A DNA stretch of 37,971 bases from Nitrospirota bacterium (GTDB lineage Bacteria > Nitrospirota > Nitrospiria > Nitrospirales > UBA8639), in NCBI GenBank assembly GCA_003696975.1, contig RFGT01000064.1, positions 1 through 37,971 of the forward strand. The letters run 5' to 3'. Numbering within the stretch: the stretch's first letter is position 1; every line of letters starts with the position of its first letter. Shown here piece after piece: positions 17,371 to 22,848 of this stretch. Made by a program: the position numbers and the translations under genes. Under the pieces are notes generated by a model. That model had not been told where the DNA came from. It saw only the letters and a list, made by a program, of their open reading frames with translations, and made no database searches.

Positions 17371-18882
17371 ATGAAGATCCAGGTCAAGAAAGGTGATGTG
17401 GTCAAAGAACCCGCCGAGGTGCTGGTGCTTGGAGGATATGAAGATGAAACCCAGATGGATGCCTGGATCGACGCGGTCGATCGGCTCCTGAATGGCCAGC
17501 TTCGCACACTCCGAACGACTAAGGAATTTCAAGGCAAACTCAATCAAACCGTGCTCGTGCATACCCCAAACAAACACCGAGGCCCCAGGCGCGTCTTATT
17601 AGTAGGATTGGGGAAGCGGGGCGAGGTCACGTTGGATCGGGTGCGACAGGCCATGGGAACAGCGGTCAAGCGCGTGCGTCAGGCAGGGGCTCAATCGTTG
17701 ACGGTTCCGCTGCTCGGTGGAAACACGGCCAGCTTTGAGGCTACCGATCAAGCCCAGGCCATGGTAGAAGGAACGATTCTGGGGAATTATCGGTTTACGC
17801 ATTATCTCACGAATGCCGACGATCAGCCAAAGGCTGTGCAGGTCATGACCCTTCTGGCGACCGATGCAAGCCAACTCCCTACCCTGAAACGCGGGGCATT
17901 GCGGGGAGAAATCAGTGGGGAGGCCACCGCCTACGTTCGCGATCTATGCAATCATCCAGCCAATGTGATGACACCGGCGCGGATCGTGGAGGAGGCGAAA
18001 CTGGTGGCCAAGGAAAAAGGGGTCCGGCTCACAGTGCTGGATCGCAAACAACAGGAAAAACTGGGTATGGGCGGGCTCTTAGGCGTGTCCCGGGGAAGTG
18101 CGGAACCGGCGAAATTTATCGTGTTGACCTATTCTGGGGCTGCAAAACGTGAGCCGCCGGTGGTTCTGGTTGGGAAAACCGTCACCTTCGATTCTGGTGG
18201 GATCTCCCTCAAGCCCGCTGAGAATATGGAGCAGATGAAGGCGGACATGACTGGAGGGGCTGAGGTTTTGGCCACGGTTCGCGCAGCCGCACGCCTTCGC
18301 CTTCCCCTGAACCTGGTGGGTATCTTGCCGGCGACCGAGAATATGCCGGGCGGTCGAGCGATCAAACCCGGAGATATTCTGCGGATGCTCTCCGGGAAAA
18401 CCGTTGAAGTCCAGAACACTGATGCGGAAGGGCGGCTTGTCCTCGCTGATGGGCTCGCGTATGCCGTTCGATTGAAGCCCGCGTGCATTCTGGATGTTGC
18501 CACCTTGACGGGAGCCTGTATGGTGGCGCTGGGCCAATTCGCGATTGGCATGCTGGGCAATGACGACTCGCTCAAAGCTCAAGTCAAAGCTGCCGGCGAA
18601 CAGGCAGGCGAGCGCGTGTGGGAGATGCCGCTTTGGGAAGAGTATTTCGAACAGTTGAAAAGTGATGTCGCTGACATGCGAAATATTGGCGGGCGAGGCG
18701 GAGGGATGATTACGGCCGCCATGTTTTTAAGCAAGTTCGTCGAGAATGTTCCGTGGGTCCATTTGGATATTGCCAGTACGGACTGGAGCCAATCAGAACG
18801 CCCCTATGTCGGCAAGGGGCCCACAGGAATAGGGGCTCGATTGCTCCTCCAATTTTTACTCAACCGCACGCAAGGAAAGTGA
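17371..18882 (+). CDS. pepA: Leucyl aminopeptidase (M17)
   Basis: The protein has 503 aa, the usual length. The C-terminal catalytic domain holds the metal-site segments VGKTVTFDSGGISLKP (Lys and Asp ligands), MKADMTGGAEV (Asp) and the M17 signature NTDAEGRLVLADGL (Asp, Glu, Arg). The N-terminal 170 residues are the less conserved macrodomain-like part. It is a cytoplasmic hexameric metallopeptidase that removes N-terminal residues, and in E. coli it also binds DNA. The ATG follows AAAGGGGGAAGAG. The 159 bp upstream hold no gene; TTGACA at 17296-17301 lacks a good -10 partner. nagZ follows 7 bp after the stop. Confidence 0.96.
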   Translation: MKIQVKKGDVVKEPAEVLVLGGYEDETQMDAWIDAVDRLLNGQLRTLRTTKEFQGKLNQTVLVHTPNKHRGPRRVLLVGLGKRGEVTLDRVRQAMGTAVKRVRQAGAQSLTVPLLGGNTASFEATDQAQAMVEGTILGNYRFTHYLTNADDQPKAVQVMTLLATDASQLPTLKRGALRGEISGEATAYVRDLCNHPANVMTPARIVEEAKLVAKEKGVRLTVLDRKQQEKLGMGGLLGVSRGSAEPAKFIVLTYSGAAKREPPVVLVGKTVTFDSGGISLKPAENMEQMKADMTGGAEVLATVRAAARLRLPLNLVGILPATENMPGGRAIKPGDILRMLSGKTVEVQNTDAEGRLVLADGLAYAVRLKPACILDVATLTGACMVALGQFAIGMLGNDDSLKAQVKAAGEQAGERVWEMPLWEEYFEQLKSDVADMRNIGGRGGGMITAAMFLSKFVENVPWVHLDIASTDWSQSERPYVGKGPTGIGARLLLQFLLNRTQGK

Positions 18883-18889
18883 ACCAGAC

Positions 18890-19975
18890 ATGCCGGTCCT
18901 TCCTCCTGTCGGTCAGGTCTTCCTGATCGGCTTTCATGGGACCGATCTCACCTCTGAGCAAATTGCCTGGTTGCAAGAATTGCGACCAGGTGGGGTAATA
19001 CTATTTGCCCGAAATCTCGAAAGCCCTCTTCAAGTTGCAGCCCTGACAGCCGCTCTTCAGACACATGTGGGGGATGAGCCATTGTTGATTGCGATTGATC
19101 AGGAAGGCGGTCGGGTCTCGCGGCTTCCCAAGGGGTTTACCATTTTCCCCGCGGCGGCCACCATTGCCGCTTGTGGTTCACTTGATGTGGCCTATGCCGC
19201 GGCGGCGGTGACAGCCAGGGAACTGAAGGCCGTGGGGATTAACATGAATCTGGCTCCGGTGCTGGACGTGAATACCAATCCAGAAAACCCCGTCATTGGA
19301 GATCGGGCCTTTGGGAGTGACCCTGAACAAGTGAGCCGCTATGGCCTGGCGACGATGGAGGGACTTCATGATAACGGCGTTGTGGCATGTGGCAAACATT
19401 TTCCAGGACATGGCGACACTCTGTTAGATTCTCATCATGCCTTGCCTACCGTAGGTCTTTCTCGTGAACGGCTGGAGACGATCGAGAGTCACCCGTTTCG
19501 ACAGGCCATTGCCCGAGGGCTTGAAGCAATCATGAGTGCCCATGTTGTCTATCCAGGATTCGATCCGATGCAGCCGGCGACCTTGTCCTCGATTCTGCTT
19601 ACGGAAGTACTCCGGGAGCAACTGGGATTTCGCGGTGTCGTCTTGACCGATGATCTTGAGATGCGGGCGATTATCGATCATTTCTCGATTGAAGAGGCGG
19701 CTGTGCGGGCGCTCCAAGCCGGAGCGGATATGATCCTGATTTGTCATGATTCCGCACGCCAAGTGGCAGCGTTTCGGGCTGTGCAACAAGCCCTGGAGGC
19801 AGGAGAGCTAGACCCCGGACGGATTCAGGCGAGCATTGCCCGCATTCAGGCCCTCAAGAAGCGGTTTCGGATATCAAGAAGTACCTGCGAGCGTGCGTAC
19901 GTATCTCAGGTTGTGGGTGCACCGCGCCATCGCGAATTGGTTGAAAAAATTAAAAAAGTGGCGGGAATGGCTTGA
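18890..19975 (+). CDS. nagZ: Beta-N-acetylhexosaminidase (GH3)
   Basis: The protein has 361 aa. The GH3/NagZ signature KHFPGHGDTLLDSHHALP holds the conserved Asp-His dyad used as acid/base, and the nucleophile Asp lies in GVVLTDDLEMRAI. IAIDQEGGRVSRLP is the substrate-pocket motif. NagZ releases N-acetylglucosamine from muropeptide fragments in cytoplasmic cell-wall recycling, and no signal peptide is seen. It lacks the second GH3 domain of beta-glucosidases, as expected for NagZ. It is 7 bp after pepA and probably cotranscribed. The tail after residue about 330 is longer than in E. coli NagZ (341 aa) and basic. Confidence 0.93.
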   Translation: MPVLPPVGQVFLIGFHGTDLTSEQIAWLQELRPGGVILFARNLESPLQVAALTAALQTHVGDEPLLIAIDQEGGRVSRLPKGFTIFPAAATIAACGSLDVAYAAAAVTARELKAVGINMNLAPVLDVNTNPENPVIGDRAFGSDPEQVSRYGLATMEGLHDNGVVACGKHFPGHGDTLLDSHHALPTVGLSRERLETIESHPFRQAIARGLEAIMSAHVVYPGFDPMQPATLSSILLTEVLREQLGFRGVVLTDDLEMRAIIDHFSIEEAAVRALQAGADMILICHDSARQVAAFRAVQQALEAGELDPGRIQASIARIQALKKRFRISRSTCERAYVSQVVGAPRHRELVEKIKKVAGMA

Positions 19976-20070
19976 GGTTGACCGGGCAATCAGTGTAAGA
20001 ACGTGGCAAGGAGATCGGATGCAGATTCAGCGGGTTCTTGTATAAAAGAAACTCAAAAAAAGGAGAAGCA

Positions 20071-20463
20071 ATGCCATTGAAAAAGGGTGACATCCTCGAC
20101 GAGCATAAACGCCACCCGCAAAGCTGCGGGCTGCTTGTTAAAGTCATGGCTGGAGGGGAAGGCTTCGAGAAAATTGTCTGTTGTGACTCGGAGCTCACAG
20201 AAGACGACCGGGTACCGACCGTCGTCCGGTCCAAGGGCCGTAAGCGAGGGTATCTTCCTCCTGCGGTCGTCTTGGATGAAAAAAAATTATACCCCAATTC
20301 CTGCGGCCTGCGGGTCATGATCATGGATGGAGGCGCTGGCTTTAAGGAAATCATTTGCTGCGGGCATTCCCTCACCATAAGCTCCATGCGAGAATTTCAG
20401 TATGGTCACTATCGCCAGGAGTCGCTTCCCGATACCTCAGAAGAACGATCTGGTCACGCCTGA
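20071..20463 (+). CDS. Tandem desulforedoxin-like protein with three Cys per unit
   Basis: 130 aa from the ATG at 20071, selected because AAAAAAAGGAGAAG precedes it. Two similar units are visible: residues 7-41 with HPQSCGLLVKVMAGGEGF then CC, and residues 66-101 with YPNSCGLRVMIMDGGAGF then CC. Cys positions are 19, 37, 38 and 78, 96, 97, so the spacing is 18 in both. Desulforedoxin has C-x2-C, then CC; here the first Cys of the pair is Pro (HPQSC, YPNSC), leaving three. A metal site would need another ligand (for example His15 or a dimer partner), or the domain is no longer rubredoxin-like. The assignment is by pattern, not by search. The linker 42-62 is basic. It follows nagZ by 95 bp on the same strand. 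Confidence 0.55.
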   Translation: MPLKKGDILDEHKRHPQSCGLLVKVMAGGEGFEKIVCCDSELTEDDRVPTVVRSKGRKRGYLPPAVVLDEKKLYPNSCGLRVMIMDGGAGFKEIICCGHSLTISSMREFQYGHYRQESLPDTSEERSGHA

Positions 20464-20595: not shown

Positions 20596-21003
20596 ATGAG
20601 CGCGCTACCCGAATTCGTCGGCACGATCCACATTTTTTTGGGCCCCTACCGGGGGAATCCTATTGCCTTGTATTTGCGTAAAAAAGGCGATCAGGTAACG
20701 ATTGCCCCGACAATTTATCCATGGAATCGGATCGTGGGGAGAGGAGAGACGGCTAATAAAGCCGCAGCCGACTTTGAAGAGAAATGGAAGCAGAATGGGC
20801 TTGCACCGGAGATGTATACAGGACCTCACTGGGAAGGCGGAATTAAGCCGGAGAAACCCAAACCTGCAGCCCCTCCACCGAAGTCTGCGGCTCCGAAGCC
20901 CTTGGAAGAAGGTAAGCCTGCAAAGCCCCCATCACCATCGCCGAATGAATCCTCCTCTGCTGCACCTTCTGCTGAAGCCATCAAAAGGTCGGCAGCCTCA
21001 TAG
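20596..21003 (+). CDS. Orphan 135-aa protein with Pro/Ala/Lys-rich tail
   Basis: I do not recognise the family. Residues 1-80 look like a small folded domain (FVGTIHIFLGPYRGNPIALY and ETANKAAADFEEKWKQNG), without a signal peptide. Residues about 84-135 form a low-complexity tail rich in Pro, Ala, Lys and Ser, likely disordered. The start ATG has only GGGAC nearby, so the start is moderately sure. It lies 132 bp after the desulforedoxin-like gene. It is convergent with the amidotransferase gene, with 32 bp between their stops. Confidence 0.65.
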   Translation: MSALPEFVGTIHIFLGPYRGNPIALYLRKKGDQVTIAPTIYPWNRIVGRGETANKAAADFEEKWKQNGLAPEMYTGPHWEGGIKPEKPKPAAPPPKSAAPKPLEEGKPAKPPSPSPNESSSAAPSAEAIKRSAAS

Positions 21004-21843: not shown

Positions 21844-22266
21844 CTATTCCATCTCCGTCGTGGGCTCCATCATGTGTTCGTCTTCATAGGGGGACACGCC
21901 GAAAAATCGAATAGGTTTTTCGCCTTTTAAGTGCTCAGGAGTAATCACGTACGTGCCATAAATACTAGGCTCCCACACGGCCTTAGCGGCCTCATTATCT
22001 CCGCCGGTCAGGATCCATGTAAATCCTCCGACTATGCCGCCAACCCCTGCATAGACGATTTTCGCAACGCCATAAGGGATCGTAACCAAAAAGCTGAGGA
22101 CACTAAGACCGGCTTCCGTGGCCGAATCGGTTTCTTCCTCGTCATCCGCTGCCGCTCCAGAAGGCATAAGCAAGGGAGAAAGACATAAGGTTACAACTAA
22201 GATGCTCGCAAGTACACGTTTCCCCAGGACATGAGAAATACCCGCTGACGTTTGCTGATTGTCCAT
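21844..22266 (-). CDS. Exported protein with Gly-rich membrane segment, unknown function
   Basis: The protein has 140 aa. AAGAGGAGG precedes the ATG. A signal peptide covers residues 1-40 (RVLASILVVTLCLSPLLMPS, cleavage near AAA), then an acidic stretch (DDEEETDS). Residues about 52-90 are hydrophobic and Gly-rich (VAKIVYAGVGGIVGGFTWIL), which could insert into a membrane. The C-terminus is acidic with the segment YVITPEHLKGEKPIRFFG. I do not recognise the family. It stands 35 bp downstream (stop to start) of nothing on this strand except the amidotransferase gene at its 3' side. Confidence 0.7.
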   Translation of the reverse strand: MDNQQTSAGISHVLGKRVLASILVVTLCLSPLLMPSGAAADDEEETDSATEAGLSVLSFLVTIPYGVAKIVYAGVGGIVGGFTWILTGGDNEAAKAVWEPSIYGTYVITPEHLKGEKPIRFFGVSPYEDEHMMEPTTEME

Positions 22267-22401: not shown

Positions 22402-22848
22402 TTAGTGTTCAAGGTCGAGCTGGCGAGCGATTTGTGCCTTCACCGTTTCTCGTTGGGCTTTTAAGCTTTCGGCGAGTTCGGTCTCAAACTGCTGCCATCC
22501 GAGGCGGGAAGTATCTGGGGGGATCCCACGCTCAATGGCCACTTGGAGTTTCAATTGGCAGAGCTGCTGAACGAATATGTCGTGACCAAGTGGCGTGTAT
22601 TCGGCCCGTTCACTATCCGGCAGGCGCTGCAACAGGTCGGCATACCAATGTTCGAAGTCGAGAAGACGTTTGGCCTGTGCGAGTTGCTCAGTATTGAGTT
22701 CCACGACGACCTGAATGCCTCCCTTCCAACTCCGCTTCTTTAAGTTAAAGACACAATAGACGATCTGCGGATCGGCTTGATCAGTCTCCGGCCCAAAGAA
22801 TAGGGTGAACCGATAGGGAGGAATAGGTGGTGGAGACAGCTCAGTCAT
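22402..22848 (-). CDS. Orphan 148-aa cytoplasmic protein
   Basis: I do not recognise this protein. The ATG follows AAAGGAGG at ten bases, so expression is likely. Residues 11-52 look like a small beta domain (YRFTLFFGPETDQADPQIVY, KRSWKGGIQVVVEL). Residues 53-148 are mostly helical and Gln/Leu/Glu-rich (LAQAKRLLDFEHWYADLLQR, AQRETVKAQIARQLDLEH) and could form a coiled coil. There is no signal or membrane helix. It is separated from the gene at 21844-22266 by 135 bp and is divergent from tatA. Confidence 0.7.
   Translation of the reverse strand: MTELSPPPIPPYRFTLFFGPETDQADPQIVYCVFNLKKRSWKGGIQVVVELNTEQLAQAKRLLDFEHWYADLLQRLPDSERAEYTPLGHDIFVQQLCQLKLQVAIERGIPPDTSRLGWQQFETELAESLKAQRETVKAQIARQLDLEH

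Follow-up and report, generated by a model that had tools for sequence, protein, structure and literature searches.

A small gene in the genome of a Nitrospirota bacterium raises the question of what a desulforedoxin-like domain becomes once the first of its four cysteines is missing, here from two copies within one chain. The gene lies in a window of 37,971 nucleotides (the whole stretch of DNA analysed, contig RFGT01000064.1 of assembly GCA_003696975.1), to which all positions below refer. A search of a limited literature collection found no paper pairing either desulforedoxin or PsiE, the family of a membrane protein often encoded next door, with Nitrospira.

The Tandem Gene and Its Duplicated Units

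The open reading frame of 130 amino acids and two units that had been proposed from the letters was confirmed at exactly its claimed position, with an ATG start at 20071, a GGAG upstream of it and a stop codon ending at 20463. The start codon position is kept in homologues, and no obvious signal peptide was seen in the 130-residue protein. The chain is laid out as unit 1 (residues 10–43; HPQSCGLLVKVMAGGEGFEKIVCC), a linker bearing a conserved GRK-x-G, unit 2 (residues 69–102; YPNSCGLRVMIMDGGAGFKEIICC) and a variable tail, and its features are as follows.

20062–20065, forward strand: likely ribosome-binding site GGAG (sequence)
20071–20463, forward strand: coding sequence of the tandem three-Cys desulforedoxin-like protein (open reading frame, homologues, dN/dS)
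20098–20199, forward strand: unit 1, residues 10–43, pattern DE..K..P.SCGL...M.GG.GF..I.CC...LT (conservation, hhalign)
20275–20376, forward strand: unit 2, residues 69–102, same pattern (conservation, hhalign)
20452–20460, forward strand: C-terminal G-x-A after the variable tail (Gly in 67/67 homologues, Ala in 66/67)

The terminal G-x-A is a possible recognition tail. A plasmid search with the tandem protein gave no match.

Two units of one pattern at a spacing of 18 had been described for the window, and the same arrangement extends to the whole family: among 67 distinct homologues, which give 134 units for all conservation counts, the gap from SC to CC is 17 residues (18 positions from Cys to Cys) in every unit. 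The family profiles of unit 1 and unit 2 align end to end in hhalign with a score of 102, and the window's own two units share 47% identity across 43 columns (hhalign); the pair is therefore attributed to tandem duplication and not to chance.

Relationship to Desulforedoxin

Desulforedoxin is a homodimer of domains of this kind. In Pfam, the window protein matches a single model, Desulfoferrod_N (PF06397), which is found twice with an E-value of 7.8e-5 and reaches 22.7 bits against a cut-off of 23; the same model matches 20 of the 26 family members tested, three of which (L016, L028 and L031, at 24.6–25.5) exceed its gathering score. The NCBIfam desulfoferrodoxin models likewise match the window protein below cut-off, for example TIGR00320 at 20.5 bits against 146.9. 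When compared by hhalign with 34 true four-Cys desulforedoxin-type domains collected from Nitrospirota genomes, unit 1 and the pooled units give probabilities of 67–89% and unit 2 alone 34–75%, and the alignment places the first cysteine of desulforedoxin on Pro16 and Pro75. The observed alignment score of 27.2 exceeds the maximum obtained from full column shuffles (15.1), from shuffles with the Cys columns held (20.6) and from shuffles with both Cys and Gly columns held (26.1), none of the 60 shuffles of each kind reaching it; with the strict desulforedoxin set alone, 2 of 60 Cys- and Gly-held shuffles reach the observed score. The relation to desulforedoxin drawn in the preliminary description is upheld by the breadth of the Pfam matches and by hhalign scores above those of shuffled controls; shared ancestry appears to be the best reading of these profiles, with part of the signal sitting in a few Cys and Gly columns. 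A PDB profile match to designed TOD proteins (E 1e-4) was rejected as the sum of many tiny matches to a repeat.

At the profile level, the units share with desulforedoxin and the N-terminal domain of desulfoferrodoxin (PF06397, TIGR00319) the pattern CG-x2-V-x-V ... G-x-G ... CC. Each tandem unit, however, holds three cysteines where desulforedoxin has four (CxxC plus CC), and the distance from the second of these to the CC pair is 17 residues instead of the classical 15; a His two positions after CC (CC+2), an Asp-Glu before the site, the presence of two units per chain and the restriction to Nitrospirales are further differences. Desulfoferrodoxin, the 2Fe superoxide reductase of TIGR00320, is matched in its N-terminal domain, but the 130-residue protein carries no superoxide reductase domain and hence no His4Cys centre. 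Close in profile are small desulforedoxin-like proteins of Nitrospirota (L121, L124 and L127–L130) that share CGL-x-V-x-V and a longer loop before CC, yet consist of a single unit with an intact CxxC and no His after CC, most of them with K-rich tails. Such small proteins (L121, L122, L124, L125 and L127–L130) occur in the Nitrospirota families f19, f23, f26 and f37, and in most cases show Lys/Ala-rich N-terminal tails and extra Cys in the loop.

The first Cys of CxxC is missing from both units in 67/67 homologues and present in 34/34 relatives from the phylum; the tandem protein represents a derived form of the desulforedoxin domain, duplicated and with three Cys per unit. Relative to classical four-Cys desulforedoxins, both units of the family have in common the missing first Cys, C-x17-CC, the upstream Asp-Glu, SCGL and the His at CC+2. 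Either CGL or a longer loop also occurs in some of the phylum's four-Cys relatives, which leaves the absent Cys, the Asp-Glu and the His to set the units apart. That both units share derived features points to a single event, and the first Cys was most likely lost once, ahead of the duplication, as had been suggested earlier; among the shared features, notably the Asp-Glu and the His are lacking in the 34 true desulforedoxin domains. No single-unit three-Cys intermediate was seen among the PF06397 matches read from Nitrospirota.

Conservation and the Candidate Metal Site

The residues that bear on a putative metal site are the following.

20116–20118, forward strand: Pro16, first-Cys position of desulforedoxin in unit 1 (Pro in 62/67)
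20125–20127, forward strand: Cys19, unit 1 (invariant, 67/67)
20179–20184, forward strand: Cys37-Cys38, unit 1 (invariant, 67/67)
20188–20190, forward strand: Ser40, CC+2 position of unit 1 (His in 66/67 homologues; conservation)
20293–20295, forward strand: Pro75, first-Cys position of desulforedoxin in unit 2 (Pro in 58/67)
20302–20304, forward strand: Cys78, unit 2 (invariant, 67/67)
20356–20361, forward strand: Cys96-Cys97, unit 2 (invariant, 67/67)
20365–20367, forward strand: His99, CC+2 position of unit 2 (His in 64/67; conservation), candidate fourth ligand

All six cysteines are invariant in the 67 homologues, so that free variation of the Cys residues, the outcome that would have spoken against the earlier reading, did not arise. 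The replacement of the first Cys by Pro holds for both units of the window protein, but other members depart from it: 14 of 134 units have Ser, Gln, Thr, His or Ala at this position, and none has Cys; Pro as an invariant functional substitute was accordingly ruled out. Since the six cysteines are invariant, dN/dS is low (0.04–0.08 in seven close pairs of the tandem gene) and Pro is replaced in 14 of 134 units, the Cys trio is, on this comparative evidence, under strong purifying selection and Pro is not essential.

The CC+2 His is present in 130 of 134 units as against 0 of 34 four-Cys desulforedoxin domains of the phylum, which makes this near-invariant residue the best candidate for the fourth ligand; C-C-x-H could complete a Cys3His site. 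The window protein, with Ser in unit 1, and its near relative L003, with Arg in unit 2, are each left with one His-bearing site, and in two more homologues the CC+2 residue of unit 2 is Arg or Asn. With Ser40 in place of His in the window protein, and three other members carrying Arg or Asn at position 99, Cys3His coordination cannot be a requirement for both units. Asp10, Glu11 and Glu70 are each found in 67/67 homologues and are placed before the site in both units; Glu11 and Glu70, being more strictly kept than the His, could be alternative ligands.

Structure prediction was too poor for fold or ligand geometry, both with AlphaFold on the full protein (12-row alignment, pLDDT 51) and on a single unit from an alignment pooling the two (22 rows, pLDDT 58), and Foldseek searches of the PDB with the two low-confidence models returned chance matches only, none significant. 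The tandem protein most likely still holds a metal site.

Proposed Explanation and Its Rivals

The overall explanation, to which we give about an even chance, is an ancient loss of the first Cys followed by duplication, leading to a single-chain pseudo-dimer with two putative Cys3His-type metal sites. A desulforedoxin-type domain would have lost its first Cys and gained a loop longer by two residues together with a His after CC; the altered domain would then have been duplicated into one chain in the Nitrospirales ancestor. Given the homodimeric state of desulforedoxin, the most likely product is one chain that forms a pseudo-dimer and carries two mononuclear metal sites. In the consensus member, each site would probably be Cys3His (the Cys of SC, the CC pair and the CC+2 His), bind Zn or Fe and lie in the cytoplasm, while His-less sites, such as the window's unit 1, may have water, another residue or nothing as fourth ligand. 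It probably serves as a small metal-thiolate protein that is a partner in redox chemistry, sensing or structure, working in many members with the PsiE-like membrane protein of the neighbouring gene.

Among the rivals, three-thiolate sites with the fourth position open, exchangeable or occupied by Glu11 and Glu70 would serve the putative binding of a substrate, a soft metal ion or NO in place of a saturated Zn or Fe site. That the three cysteines of each unit are absolute and the His is not, and that Asp10, Glu11 and Glu70 precede the sites without exception, both agree with such sites, but a His in nearly all units and in none of the four-Cys relatives is what would be expected of a replacement ligand, and we regard this rival as fairly unlikely. 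A metal-free descendant, in which the Cys trio would be a putative thiol/disulfide redox or purely structural element, draws on the fact that each unit lacks one of four ligands and on the capacity of a vicinal CC with a nearby Cys to form disulfides; as the protein has no visible signal peptide and is probably cytoplasmic, where its thiols would be reduced, and as three cysteines with a conserved His in both units are closer to a metal site than to a thioredoxin-like motif, this reading seems distinctly unlikely. An unrelated zinc finger, for example a RING-like one whose likeness to desulforedoxin is a convergence of short Cys/Gly motifs, is very improbable: the Rtf2 RING-finger model (PF04641) matches 6 of 26 members weakly, with E-values down to 5e-4 and in several over the CGH segment, and Cys and Gly columns do carry part of the desulforedoxin score, but Desulfoferrod_N matches more members with better scores, the Rtf2 scores stay at or below 19.1 bits among the members listed against a cut-off of 27.4, which makes convergence on the Rtf2 side likely, and the desulforedoxin score beats 60/60 Cys/Gly-preserving shuffles of the full set, although 2/60 reach it with the strict set.

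Gene Neighbourhood

The tandem gene follows nagZ in 12/12 loci, pepA preceding in 11/12, and an Atg22-like MFS gene is interposed in some of these pepA–nagZ–tandem loci. The neighbours in the window are given below.

17371–18882, forward strand: pepA (Peptidase_M17), upstream (syntenic in 11/12 loci)
18890–19975, forward strand: nagZ-like gene (Glyco_hydro_3), upstream (syntenic in 12/12 loci; marks the empty site in comammox genomes)
20596–21003, forward strand: small conserved protein with no Pfam match, downstream (syntenic in most loci; kept in clade A comammox lacking the tandem gene)

Further along, positions 21844–22266 and 22402–22848 encode two small conserved proteins with no Pfam match, adjoining a Peptidase_C26 gene and syntenic in nine loci. 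A gene for a PsiE-family membrane protein (PF06146) lies directly downstream of the tandem gene in most Nitrospiraceae and in several genera of the window's family. Because no PsiE-like gene was found in the window's genome, which keeps the tandem gene, the two genes are associated and not inseparable; PsiE was ruled out as an obligate partner, being absent from several other tandem-bearing genera as well.

Distribution and Absence from Comammox Genomes

Strong family matches occur in 89 of 396 Nitrospirota genomes, all of the order Nitrospirales. A scan of 84,980 species genomes, which detects close relatives only, yielded 11 loci, all under Nitrospira or close names except one titled Nitrospinota. 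The latter (L003, JACZVJ010000006.1) encodes a protein identical to that of G379, a genome grouped in the window's family, and its title is probably wrong.

Among 118 Nitrospirales genomes, the tandem gene was found in 81, AmoA (PF02461) in 21 and both in none; in other words, the tandem gene is present in 0/21 amoA-bearing genomes and 81/97 others (Fisher p 1.4e-13, uncorrected for kinship). In six genomes of genus g7 (G169, G177, G193, G208, G212 and G222), neither the tandem gene nor AmoA was found. A check for amoB or hydroxylamine dehydrogenase covered the first three of these: G169 has amoB, and G177 and G193 have a multihaem cytochrome of the hydroxylamine-dehydrogenase type; all three fall within the comammox clade of the tree. 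Of the ten further genomes with neither gene, five are of the window's family (most of them incomplete and one also without nagZ), four belong to another family, f34, and one, 71% complete, to f33.

Comammox clades A and B were labelled here from amoA, amoB, hydroxylamine dehydrogenase and the tree. In clade A genomes, nagZ is followed directly by the next conserved gene, the tandem and PsiE genes both being missing; in the five amoA-bearing genomes of genus g10, no gene of the usual downstream set was found after nagZ. A single origin of all comammox rows is rejected by the pepA+nagZ tree (p-AU 3e-50), which calls for two or more independent losses; since only two independent pairs are supported, no significance can be claimed for a coupling of loss to amoA. 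The absence of the tandem gene from complete ammonia oxidisers is suggestive at the level of gene content; reversed causation, hitchhiking or shared ecology may lie behind the exclusion.

Two other genes were considered as discriminators. Cyanase was stated in a 2018 review to be lost in all known comammox, or complete nitrifiers (PMC6311188); contrary to that statement, it is present in the amoA-bearing genomes G050, G091, G200 and G204, and also in G169 and G177, which bear amoB or the hydroxylamine-dehydrogenase-type cytochrome. A link of the tandem gene to cyanase was ruled out: the window's genome lacks cyanase but has the tandem gene, and in four amoA-bearing genomes the reverse holds. 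Assimilatory nitrite reductase (PF01077) was rejected, being present in 116/118 genomes.

Significance

The tandem protein may be needed in nitrite-only Nitrospira and would be dispensable or unwanted in complete ammonia oxidisers. A bolder version, which we consider unlikely, holds that it would be a Nitrospirales-specific twin Cys3His (or Cys3 open-site) metalloprotein tied to nitrite-only life that must go once ammonia oxidation is acquired, the loss in both comammox clades being functional and not incidental. The family offers a clean natural case of a duplicated putative metal site in which one thiolate disappeared ahead of duplication and the remaining three were retained in every member, and the replacement ligand of its units is a testable candidate. 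Whereas cyanase, found in at least four amoA-bearing genomes, does not separate the two groups, an unstudied and strongly conserved gene separates nitrite-only from complete ammonia-oxidising Nitrospira among the genomes compared.
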